Of a DNA stretch of 44,112 nucleotides, positions 4,401 to 16,490 are shown one piece after another; within the stretch, counting starts at the first letter, position 1; each line of letters opens with the position of its first letter. The DNA is from Glutinoglossum americanum. Taxonomy: Eukaryota; Ascomycota; Geoglossomycetes; Geoglossales; Geoglossaceae. The stretch covers positions 1-44,112 of the forward strand of contig JAGHQL010000206.1 of NCBI GenBank assembly GCA_020080175.1, given 5' to 3'. Below the pieces are notes generated by a model, which made no database searches, was not told the DNA's origin, and saw only the letters and a list, made by a program, of their open reading frames with translations. The translations under genes were made by a program, and so were the position numbers.

Positions 4401-5506
4401 TCGGGGATATCTCCGCGTTTGCCACGACGCTCTGCGAAAGCAACTATTATTATCAAGTTCAACGTAATCCGGTTGCTGTTCGCAACGCGAACATAGAGTT
4501 CTGGTGTGGTAAGAGATAAGGAAAGAAGATAGGTCGGCAAAGTTTTAGAGAAAGGGTGCGGATAGGGGCAGGGATGGTAAAAGCTTCGAGCAACTTACCA
4601 CGCTCATTTAGGGACAGTCGTGGAATATATTTCGGAGCACTCGCTATTCCCGGGATTGGTTAGACTTGCTCGGCTGGTCATATCAATAGCTACCCGTGGG
4701 GTGTTTAACTTACCATCGCCAATATTTAGGTCTATAGCGAATTTCTCGAAAACAGCGAACGCTGCCTGTGGGAATTGCAGTGTTTCCCCAAGAATACTCG
4801 TAGGGTCGATGTACACAAATTCCGGCGCTCTTGGACTTAGCGGGGCTGGGGATCTTGTTGGCTTTGGGGGACCAGATTGATTTGAAGGCCCAGCTTGAGC
4901 ATTCTGTTTATCGTTATTACTATTGGCCTAAAGACAAAAAAAAATCAGCTTTGTTTAACAGAGTGTCAATGAACAGAGAGTGTTTTATGTCATTGACAAC
5001 AATGGGGGGAAGGATAATGAAAATAAAAATATAAAATATAAAATATAAAAATCTCGAAAAAAAAAAATTAAAAAAATTTTTTAAGGAAAAAAAAACAAGA
5101 TATTTACCTGTAGCGCCTGTCCTGTTTTATTTATTGCCTTATTTGCGTTGGACAAGGCCTGTGGAGATATAGTTTGAGTATAATTTGTAAACCCCGTAGA
5201 AGGTTGAATTTGATCTAACAAAGTTGGATCTCGACCAAAAACATTCTGCGAAAAGCCATAGGTTGTGTTCGTTGGAGCGTAGATAGAACCGTAAGGATCA
5301 CTCGAGTTTTGCGATGGAACAAAACGTTGATCTGTTGTTCGCCAATCACGAGAAAATTGTTGGTAAGCTGAGGAGGGGATTTGTGAACCATCCCATTGTG
5401 GACCATTATCACTAAATGATGTAGGAGCTTGAGAGATTCGTTTGCTGCCATCATTTGAACTTCTCGCATTTTCCTTCCCATTTTGAGCGGCTCGTTGGCT
5501 GGCCAT
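1455..5506 (-). CDS. PNUTS/Ppn1-like PP1 regulatory protein with TFIIS-N-like region and C-terminal CCCH zinc finger
   Basis: Ten exons: 5506-5108, 4927-4714, 4643-4599, 4431-3900, 3819-3720, 3661-3126, 3054-2636, 2579-2320, 2259-1597, 1538-1455; 1083 residues, and all phases agree. Residues 1-200 are Ser/Gln/Asn-rich. Residues about 350-455 are helical (LPQYLISWLYGRV, then STLEKWKFDKL), like the TFIIS N-terminal/LW domain of PNUTS. About residue 676 is KLGVRFKPADSLVQVRY, resembling the RVxF-type PP1-docking segment of PNUTS proteins. After a Gln-rich stretch and Gly/Arg-rich tail comes a C-x7-C-x5-C-x3-H finger (PCKFYAQGKCNKGSSCTFSH), also a PNUTS feature. In yeasts this family (Ref2/Ppn1) holds PP1 in the cleavage-and-polyadenylation factor and acts in termination. 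The last intron seems to use a GC donor. The assignment rests on domain order and motifs; another TFIIS-N/CCCH nuclear protein is possible. Confidence 0.6.
1539..1596 (-). other. Probable GC-AG intron (58 bases) in the PNUTS-like gene
   Basis: The donor reads AAG|GCACGT, close to the GC-intron consensus AG|GCAAGT. It is followed by a GCTAAC branch site and a GATAG acceptor. Only this donor joins exon 9 in phase 0 to the frame encoding the CCCH finger. The nearby GT donor (GTAAAT, four bases further on) gives phase 1 and an unrelated tail. Confidence 0.6.
2126..2155. repeat. Coding hexanucleotide repeat, five units
   Basis: Five copies of TGCGTC (last unit TGCGTT) encode an alternating Thr-Gln tract in the Q-rich region of the PNUTS-like protein. 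Unit length 6 keeps the frame, so copy-number change would only alter tract length. Confidence 0.85.
4928..5107. other. AT-rich first intron of the PNUTS-like gene
   Basis: A 180-base intron, long for this window, with CAG|GTAAAT donor and CTTTAG acceptor. It contains a run of ATAAAATAT-type repeats followed by A/T homopolymers at about 5020-5098. It is the most AT-rich stretch near any gene here. Confidence 0.7.
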
Positions 5507-5962
5507 CCTTGAACGCTCAGTCGCAGGTCAGTGCAACTTGTACGAGCAGGCTACTGTTACACCAAATTGCAAAGCCACAGTATAGGCGCTCAACATTCAA
5601 ATCCGGTTGCGTACTTTATATCTTCCTTCTTTGTTCCAAGTGTGATGATGTTGAAAGGATGATGATGGTTGATGAAGCGACAAGAGGATGGATCGCGCGT
5701 GTTCACTGGACAACTAAGCTTATTCGGTCCCGAGGAATGCCGCTTTATCGATGTCAATATCGACGATTGTGAAAGAACACTTGTAACAAAGACGGAAGAT
5801 ATAAAGTACGCAACCGGATTTGAACGTTGTAACGTACAAATTTTACACTATTAAAAAGAATATCTCCCAAACATATCCTAATAGCGTTCATACAACTTGC
5901 AAGATATGAATCGAATTGTCGCACTGGCTATATTGCAGCTATTCTTTTGACATTAATTTATT
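5507..5962. promoter_or_regulatory. Bidirectional promoter with mirrored duplicate core modules
   Basis: This interval separates the start codons of the PNUTS-like gene (-) and SLY1 (+). It contains two 53-base arms in inverted orientation, 5591-5643 and 5777-5829, identical at 50 of 53 positions and 133 bases apart. Each arm carries TATAAAG (5614-5620 read on minus, 5800-5806 read on plus) pointing at the nearer gene, about 108 and 157 bases from the respective ATG. Both genes therefore have the same element in the same relative orientation. That the modules act as core promoters is inferred from position and the TATA-like box. Confidence 0.6.
5591..5829. repeat. 53-base inverted repeat pair
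   Basis: Arm 1 spans 5591-5643 and arm 2 spans 5777-5829 (reverse complement), with three mismatches in 53. Similarity stops abruptly at both outer ends. I see no target-site duplication and no transposase, so a MITE origin is possible but unsupported. As single-stranded DNA or RNA it could form a long stem with a 133-base loop. Confidence 0.9.
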
Positions 5963-8463
5963 ATGATGGCTTCAGATCATCAGTCCCTGAGGGACCGGCA
6001 GGTTGGTAAGCTTCTCAAAGGAGCATGACGATTACGTGCGCTTTGTTCTGACGTCTTTTGAACAGCTTCAATAGCAAAAATTTTAAACCTCAATCAAGAC
6101 CCTTTGGCCTCTCCGGACAATCATTCTGTCCCTACCGTCTCCACACCTGGTCTTATTTCTCAAACTACGTCAATTCTGAATCCCGAGGGAGAGCCGATCT
6201 GGAAAGTTTTGGTGTTTGACAACTTGGGTCGAGATGTCATCAGCAGTGTTTTAAGGGTCAACGACCTTCGAGCTTGGGGTGTTACTATTCATCTGTCAGT
6301 CTGCCATAATACCTATACTGATGGAGCTTTGAGCTCCCAAAAGACTAACACAAAGCTATCTAGAAACATCAACTCTCCGCGCCATCCTATCCCTGATGTA
6401 CCTGTCGTCTACCTTCTTGAACCTACTCCCACGAATCTCCAGCTGATCACGTCTGACCTCTCACGTAACCTCTACTCTCCTGCCTATATCAATTTTCTCT
6501 CCTCGATCCCTCGCCCACTTCTAGAAGACTTTGCGGCAAGCACTGCTACGGCGAATACTGCGGAACACATTACTTGTGTGTACGACCAATACTTGAACTT
6601 TATCGTCGGCGAACCAGACTTGTTTAGTTTAGCGATGGGTAGTGGGACGTATTGGGCGCTCAATAGCGCTGTGACCAAAGACGAAGAGCTTGATGCTGTT
6701 GTTGATAGGGTTGTGAGCGGACTATTCAGCGTTGTTGTCACTCTTGGTAAGTCAGGCTCTGTGATCTATTGCGAATTTCCCCCACTAATGGTTCCTTACA
6801 GGTGTTATACCAATCATAAGATGCCCCAAAGGGGGGGCAGCGGAAATGATATCTATGAAGCTCGATCGTAAGCTTCGAGATCACATTCTGAATTCTAAGG
6901 ATAATCTTTTCTCGGCTTCAAACCAGCGGCCGGCGTCCGCAACCAGCACACCTGCATCGAGACCTGTCCTCATTATTCTTGATCGCAATGTTGACCTCAT
7001 CCCAATGCTTTCGCACTCATGGACTTACCAGTCGCTGGTGCACGACGTCCTAAAGATGAAACTAAATAGAATTACTGTCGAAACACCCCTAGATGAAAAG
7101 AATCCAACGACGGGTAAGACAAGGCGTTCATATGACTTGAATTCCAATGACTTTTTCTGGGCGAAGAATGCCGGCGTACCGTTCCCGCAAGTGGCCGAAG
7201 ATATAGATACGGAACTTACGCGATACAGAGAGGATGCGAATGAGATCACCAAAAAAACTGGAGCTTCTTCCATCGAAGACCTTCAGAATGACACTAGCGC
7301 ATCGGCACAGCACCTGAAGGCCGCCATTACCCTCTTGCCAGAACTCCGGGAGCGGAAGGCGACCCTTGATATGCATATGAATATAGCCACTGTACTTCTC
7401 CAAGGCATTAAGGACCGGCAATTGGACAATTTCTTTCAGATCGAAGAGAGCATTACAAAACAATCGAAGAGTCAGATTCTAGAGCTTCTAAACGATGAAG
7501 CAAAGAACAAGGAGCCGCTGGATAAGCTCAGATTGTTTATCATATGGTTCCTAAGCACAGAGCAGGAAGTCTCACGGGCGGAGATGGAACGCTTCGAGGA
7601 AGCACTGAAGAGAGCAGGTGCTGATACTACAGTTCTTGCTTATATTAAAAAGTAGGTCGCTAGAGACTACTGGAAGGATTCTGGCATGGGCGGCTGATTG
7701 AGCGAGCTTCAGGGTGCGGGAAATCACCCGGATGACGATGATGACATCTGCGCCATCACAACCGCCACAACAGTTGACTAGTGGCGAACTTTTCCGCGGC
7801 TTCAGTGCTATAAGTAATAGGGTGTGTTTTCGGCTTGTGCCTACCCGCTTCATGCATTGCCTATTACCTAGCTAACATACTGAATAGCTCACAGACCGCC
7901 TAAAGGATGGCGCATTAGGCGCTAACCTCGAGAACCTCATCTCTGGTGTGAAGAACCTAATACCCGCGAACAAAGACCTCACTATCACCCAAATCACCGA
8001 ATCCCTCATGGATCCCGCTTCCGCATCCTCATCCGCAATTGCCAAAACAGAGAACTACCTTTACTTCGACCCACGGTCCGCAAATGCTCGCGGCACCATG
8101 CCACCCCCGTCCACTGTACGTAGCCAAGCTACCTCCAGTAGCATGCCCGGAGGTCTAGGATCCGGTCTCGGATCACTAGGCCCAGGCACGGGTGCAAGCT
8201 TTGGGCAGCGCAGACAGGGGTTTAGCGAGGCGGTGGTGTTCATGGTTGGCGGTGGAAATATGGAAGAGTATGGGAACTTGCAGGATTGGGCGAGGAGGAC
8301 AAGCGGTGGCGGTGGCGGGGTTGTAGGTGTGGGTGGTGGGGGGGGGAGTAGCGCGGCGGGTGTGCCAAGGCGGAGGATTGTATATGGGAGCACGGAGTTG
8401 ATTAACGCGGAGGAGTTTGTGGTAGGGGAGTTGAAGCGGTTGGGTGAGGAGAGCAGTACGTGA
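5963..8463 (+). CDS. SLY1: Sec1/Munc18-family protein Sly1 (ER-Golgi vesicle fusion)
   Basis: Six exons: 5963-6005, 6066-6294, 6364-6746, 6802-7651, 7713-7821, 7888-8463; 729 residues, against about 666 in yeast. SM proteins of this branch bind the syntaxin Sed5 and drive SNARE assembly in ER-Golgi traffic at the cytosolic membrane face. Recognisable segments, in order, are [12 protein letters not shown] at the N-terminus, [71 protein letters not shown], then [11 protein letters not shown] and [14 protein letters not shown] Gly-rich insert near residues 675-695 is local low complexity. ATG occurs twice in tandem (5963 and 5966); the first is taken. The second intron (6295-6363) is 69 bases with no stop, so unspliced message stays in frame; homology favours removing it. 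Confidence 0.93.
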
Positions 8464-15606: not shown

Positions 15607-16490
15607 TGCCGTTTTTCCGTCTGAACAATAAAACTATGCATCAAGCATGAATCGGAGGAAAGAAAGAAAGATGGTCGGAACCACACTCGGGATTTATTAA
15701 TTATTATTTAGGTTAGGTGAAGAAGAAGGAGGAGAAGGAGAAGAAGAAGAGAAAGAAGAACAAGAGGAGGAGGAGGATGGTGAAGAGAAGAAGAGGAGGA
15801 GGAGGGGGATAGTGAAGATAAGATGAAGAGAGGAAGGTAAGCCGTCATGGAGAAGGAAGGAAGAGAAGGCGTGAGAAGAGAAGAAGAAGAGTCAGAGGAG
15901 TGAAGGAGTGAAGGAGTGAAGGAGTGAAGAAGTGAAGAAGTGAAGAAGTGAAGAAGTAAAGAAGTGAAGAAGTGAAGAAGAAGAACAAGACCGGAATCAT
16001 CCGTCGTGTTGAGAACACGAGCAAACAGAGTCCAGCAACAGTCAAGCGGTAATCGACTCGCGCAGCAAATCGAAGACGGAGAGAAAGCGGAACAGCGGAA
16101 CAGGCCCCGATCCCGCTAAACCTCGCTCAGACGGTTAATCCGATTACACACGAACTCTCCACCAAAACTCTTGCTACACTTTTTCTTCTCTCTCTCTCTC
16201 TCAATCAGTCACACGTAGTTACCCATTTTACACGCGGCATGTAATTCGGTGATATAGATGATCGACAAGCACGAGAGGAAGAGAAAGAAAAAAGAAAAAG
16301 AAAAAGAACCAAAAAGACTCACAGCGAGCAAAGGAAATCCACCAACACACTAATAAAAAAACCCAAACCCCGCCAAGAGGAACCCACCCCACATGTTCAT
16401 CCAACATCCACCGCATCCTCCCTCCCTCCCTTCCCTCCTCCACCCAAACCCCCTAACACCAAACCAACCCCAAAAAAAAAAAAAAAAAGA
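15607..16490. other. Divergent promoter region with long polypurine block
   Basis: 884 bases between the PPxY membrane protein (-) and TFB5 (+). About 15655-16000 is strongly purine-rich on the plus strand (GAA/GGA units). This is followed by a CT run near 16185-16202 and a purine tract near 16270-16310. The last 120 bases before the TFB5 ATG are C/A-rich and end in an 18-base A run. I find no coding region. Confidence 0.6.
15902..15981. repeat. Octanucleotide minisatellite, ten units
   Basis: Ten tandem 8-base units: three GAAGGAGT, then GAAGAAGT variants with one AAAGAAGT. The ordered switch from GGAGT to GAAGT units suggests stepwise expansion. It lies inside the polypurine block. Confidence 0.85.

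Follow-up and report, generated by a model that had tools for sequence, protein, structure and literature searches.

Two divergent genes and the region between them

We analyzed a window of 44,112 nucleotides from Glutinoglossum americanum, which is the whole of a short contig (C120) in an assembly of 25,765,983 bases and 317 contigs. Two inverted, nearly identical segments, hereafter the arms, lie in this window inside the 456 bases that separate the ATG of a minus-strand open frame (5506) from that of SLY1 (5963), so that two divergent genes share a short intergenic region, as in a bidirectional promoter, with the left start taken as the start of the open frame (Table 1).

Table 1 Features at the locus, with positions in the window
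Feature	Position	Strand	Remark
Left gene, first open frame	5081-5506	-	open-frame start; PNUTS-like in the original prediction
Left arm of the inverted duplication	5591-5643	-	reads toward the minus-strand gene
TATAAAG, left arm	5614-5620	-	108 bases before ATG 5506
Spacer between the arms	5644-5776		133 bases; own symmetry not significant
Right arm of the inverted duplication	5777-5829	+	reads toward SLY1
TATAAAG, right arm	5800-5806	+	157 bases before ATG 5963
SLY1 (Sec1/Munc18 family), several exons	5963-8463	+	start and first splice placed by eye

The name SLY1, given in the original prediction from the letters of the window, is borne out by three open segments that match Sec1 (Pfam PF00995; E = 1.5e-64, 1.7e-34, and 9.6e-18), by the middle segment, for which yeast Sly1 is the closest relative of solved structure (PDB 1mqs, E = 5.9e-50), and by the N-terminus, which we spliced by hand from ATG 5963 and which matches 1mqs over residues 7-91 of the piece (E = 1.6e-7), in support of this ATG as the start. 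The same N-terminus also matches 1y9j (E = 3.1e-11), mainly over residues 50-91, the first-exon part adding only 2.9 bits. In viral contigs, one pattern match to SLY1 was obtained and none was confirmed. A short upstream open frame (14 codons and a stop) is present at 5906-5950 on the plus strand, past the right arm and ahead of the SLY1 ATG.

The label of the left gene fared less well. Neither its open segments nor one hand-joined piece gave a relevant Pfam or PDB match, and its first open frame had no Pfam family at E = 0.001, the matches under cut-off being to unrelated families only (among them a weak one to DUF7383, E = 0.18). No PNUTS or Ref2 family domain was found in the left gene by Pfam and PDB sequence searches, in which exon joins were made by eye and the gene was partly assembled. 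The PNUTS identity may nonetheless be correct because fast-evolving proteins evade such searches and the gene is incompletely assembled; a story of 3′-end processing should not rest on that label. Among the papers listed by our literature search on SLY1 and this left neighbor, none dealt with the two genes as a pair.

A sharply bounded inverted duplication

The arms are 53 nt each and identical at 50/53 positions in inverted orientation (94% complementary), with a longest unbroken matching run of 31 bases and three scattered mismatches. They form the strongest inverted repeat among the nine pairs listed for the window. Under a uniform-base model, the probability of at least 50/53 matches is about 8e-27 per placement and about 3.5e-19 when all placements up to 1 kb apart in the window are counted, so chance cannot explain the match. 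Divergence between the arms is 5.7% (95% interval 1.2-15.7%). The ungapped sequence immediately beyond the arms is without similarity, i.e., the edges are sharp, and the arms, their inversion, the 50/53 match, and the unrelated sequence outside them had been predicted correctly to the base.

We also compared the surrounding sequence with gaps allowed. The outer flanks (100 bases each) gave a score of 24, compared with 95 and 99% points of 22 and 25 in plain shuffles, and this score was equaled or beaten by 6.7% and 8.5% of 100-mers drawn at random from the genome. The two halves of the spacer scored 16 (shuffle median 14, 95% point 20). The idea that the arms are the conserved core of a longer and older duplication is not supported: the spacer halves are no more alike than shuffles, and the similarity of the outer flanks is unexceptional by the standard of real genome sequence.

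Elsewhere in the window, at 15899-15980, an 8-base unit (AGTGAAGG-like) is repeated in tandem.

Search for further copies

The original prediction called for a genome search for other copies of the 53-base module and held that many dispersed copies would make the pair a MITE. No further copy was found in the 25.8-Mb assembly. A search with the 251-base interval returned the two arms only, and so did a search with a 64-base piece containing the right arm at E up to 10 (counts in both are lower bounds). We then searched for the three blocks of the arm separately, allowing up to three mismatches and using reversed blocks as controls. With the two arms included, the TATA block gave at least 73 matches (44 + 29) vs. 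73 (34 + 39) in the control, the outer block at least 3 (2 + 1) vs. 3 (1 + 2), and the inner block at least 28 (10 + 18) vs. 31 (14 + 17); for the TATA block, nothing was found between the exact pair and matches with at least two mismatches. There is, in this genome, no sign of a dispersed module, a regulon element, or a multi-copy MITE. Exact matches of 19 and 17 bases were found in two stretches of bacterial or archaeal genomes and in one of viral contigs, the best extension reaching 32/53.

The outer end of the right arm, when reverse-complemented, reads GTTCAAATCC (left arm: ATTCAAATCC), which we take to resemble a Pol III B box, and a 20-mer similar to this outer end is carried by another locus (L037). 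An origin of the outer end from a tRNA gene or B box was rejected: ARAGORN, run with bacterial settings, reported no tRNA gene in the window or in L037.

Comparable inverted repeats in the same genome

We scanned 279,674 bases for inverted repeats of at least 20 bases and 85% identity lying within 1 kb of each other. The scanned set comprised the window, 39 short loci, which had been fetched by pattern matches and are therefore a non-random sample, and 12 pieces of 10 kb picked by position, all on contigs of at least 168 kb; loci duplicating the window (L001-L006, L035, L036, L038, and L039) were left out. Nine pairs were returned, four of them low-complexity, one weak (17/20), and four substantial, namely the 5591/5777 pair and one pair each in L012, L033, and L042. 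Five first-order Markov resamplings of the scanned set yielded one 20-base match in total, and an earlier resampling of a smaller set with slightly different settings yielded two. The 12 position-picked pieces contained none of the substantial pairs. Close inverted duplications of unique sequence are recurrent yet uncommon in this genome.

The pair in L042 (559-766 and 898-1105; G000:C16:37649-38195) is a near parallel of the 5591/5777 pair in spacer (131 vs. 133 bases) and in divergence (4.3 vs. 5.7%, with overlapping intervals). Its arms are 208 bases long and match at 199/208 positions, and no further copy of them was found in their own genome. One arm is overlapped by a 95-aa open frame without a Pfam match; downstream are a segment with choline-kinase/APH matches under cut-off and, at about 400 bases, a 20-mer that recurs exactly on contig C112. 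L033 contains a perfect 50-base palindrome with 25-base arms (25/25; 672-721, G000:C69:9153-9202), again with no further copy found in its own genome. A distance of 60 bases separates this palindrome from a downstream open frame of at least 745 aa. The short inverted repeat in L012 (25/26; 997-1104, G000:C241) is of another kind: a genome search returned 14 matches, three at its own locus and 11 on six other contigs, with 75-91% identity, and the sequence is a member of a dispersed, diverged MITE-like family. The L012 search served as a positive control for the copy search, with a query of 181 vs. 64 bases that makes the comparison inexact.

TATA words in the arms

The predicted TATA-like boxes are located where they had been reported relative to the two ATGs. 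Both TATAAAG words point outward, and each is inside a 17-mer that is present exactly in both arms. TATAAAG is rare, with 10 occurrences in 120 kb of sampled sequence when both strands are counted (about one per 24 kb of strand), and finding it within an arm of 53 bases, close to an ATG, hints at a promoter role for one of the genes. Upstream of 58 long ORFs, we counted TATAAA five times on the same strand and three times on the opposite strand, in a weak test on ORFs unfiltered for real genes; the corresponding counts were 2 vs. 1 for TATAAAG, 1 vs. 2 for TATATAA, and 1 vs. 5 for TATAAG. Clear enrichment of TATAAA upstream of long ORFs was not found in this underpowered comparison of 58 ORFs from sampled sequence, which speaks neither for nor against TATA use.

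Origin of the arms

The inverted duplication of one segment in this divergent intergenic region, as originally proposed, is supported by the arm match, and the searches of this genome returned no other copy; it is real and of a known mutational kind. We favor the view that sequence otherwise unique in the genome was duplicated locally, in inverted orientation, by replication template switching, a reading to which we assign a probability of roughly 0.57. During replication or repair, a nascent strand would probably have switched template or undergone fold-back synthesis, and about 53 bases from one side of the gap would have been recopied as their reverse complement about 133 bases away. The copied segment would have included what is putatively one gene's TATA element, leaving the other gene with an outward mirror copy, and the three differences between the arms would be substitutions after the event. 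We infer the mechanism itself; template switching or fold-back is the most economical account because there is no other copy, the edges are sharp, the identity is high, and the distance is short. Special maintenance of the arms is not needed to explain the data, although arm-to-arm correction is a possible contributor to their high identity.

Published template switches yield nearby inverted repeats in one step; for its gold-standard great-ape set, PMC7954356 gives a median copied length of 12 bases and a maximum of 128. The arms, a nearby reverse-complement copy of sequence otherwise unique in the genome (counts being lower bounds), fall within that range at 53 bases, but well above the median. 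According to PMC8794818, template switches can make hairpin stems, but the largest pattern there, up to 59 bp, did not pass the authors' own quality control. Template switches occur in Saccharomyces cerevisiae and can homogenize inverted-repeat arms in yeast, according to PMC8604942, a study that looked at spacers of up to 70 bases only, and the spacer of 133 bases counts against our reading in this respect. The process is also infrequent, judging from the 12 position-picked pieces. Set against these points are the 50/53 inverted identity with unrelated flanks, the single pair of arms returned from the genome, block searches no richer than their controls, and the close inverted duplications of L042 and L033, likewise without a further copy found in the same genome.

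A different origin would be a low-copy transposon (a MITE or foldback element), with long inverted repeats at its termini, that inserted between the genes and survives there as a relic. It would suit the anatomy of long inverted ends around a short center, and a slightly smaller element at 5598-5822 is flanked by AACATT and AACGTT, a near match (5/6) that would fit transposon insertion and so counts against template switching. However, target-site duplication is absent at the exact edges of the arms, and this candidate, seven bases inside them, is the only one among 16 start positions and lengths of 2-12 tried; the 5/6 match is expected from arm symmetry because the flanking six bases are nearly self-complementary. 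The search at E up to 10 with the arm also returned no second copy from the 25.8-Mb assembly, whereas the same kind of search with L012, using a query of 181 vs. 64 bases, reached six other contigs. We consider such a relic improbable. An assembly or amplification artifact is hardly credible: inverted chimeras arise in amplified DNA, and the window is a whole short contig, but a chimera is normally identical in its arms, and the artifact is unlikely because these arms differ at three places. Scarcely more credible is a source of hairpin RNA (a small-RNA precursor). PMC3237417 reportedly discusses the origin of plant microRNA genes from inverted duplications, and the interval folds as single-stranded DNA at -56.1 kcal/mol, compared with a shuffle mean of -24.1 kcal/mol (z = -9.4). 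This stability is trivial evidence because it follows from the inverted repeat itself, and the divergent layout speaks against one transcript across both arms. A structured RNA was rejected, with no Rfam match at gathering score and two chance-level matches (E = 1.6 and 2.7) far under the gathering scores. The cruciform that had been envisaged for the pair is allowed by the single-strand folding energy, but a loop of 133 bases makes it unlikely in duplex DNA.

The remaining reading concerns function: both arms would be active core promoters, with TBP on each TATAAAG, transcription starts downstream, selection or arm-to-arm conversion preserving the arms, and the two genes tied in expression. 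Each TATAAAG does face its own gene at a plausible distance, the word is rare enough to make a copy within an arm near an ATG suggestive, arm identity is high, and the gapped similarity of the outer flanks exceeds 95% of plain shuffles. Yet the symmetry of the TATA words is not independent evidence, because an inverted copy across the gap flips orientation and the outward TATA in the second arm follows automatically. TATAAA is not clearly enriched in the underpowered counts upstream of ORFs, the distances to the two ATGs are unequal (108 vs. 157), and the outer flanks, where the starts would lie, are not significantly alike when judged against the genome. On these sequence features, we regard such a mirror promoter as unlikely. 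The combined account, in which one template switch copied a complete core promoter in mirror orientation and both arms are now active, coregulating SLY1 and its neighbor, we hold to be more doubtful still.

What may have happened at this locus under the template-switch reading is a one-off local copying accident that could have supplied both genes with one and the same promoter segment. If both arms are active, the locus would show clearly, in a natural setting, promoter sharing that arose by one local mutation and would illustrate a simple route to coexpression of head-to-head genes. If they are not both active, it would be an ordinary inverted duplication, an example of template switching able to copy regulatory sequence.

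Comparison with known systems

Judged by titles and abstract openings, the papers listed in our literature searches described no natural case of a core promoter duplicated in mirror orientation between divergent genes. MITEs and foldback elements share with the 5591/5777 pair two long inverted ends and a short center, but here no other genome copy was returned and there is no clear target-site duplication. Bidirectional promoters of head-to-head gene pairs are similar in layout, given the short gap between two divergent open frames. The core sequences of the two sides are unrelated in usual bidirectional promoters, whereas here they would be 94% identical mirror copies. The closest likeness is to short-range template-switch duplications (quasi-palindrome formation), which have in common with the arms a nearby reverse-complement copy, sharp edges, no other copy found, and a length within the known range; the arms differ from them in being longer than is typical, in lying on a divergent intergenic region, and in carrying a copied TATA-like word.
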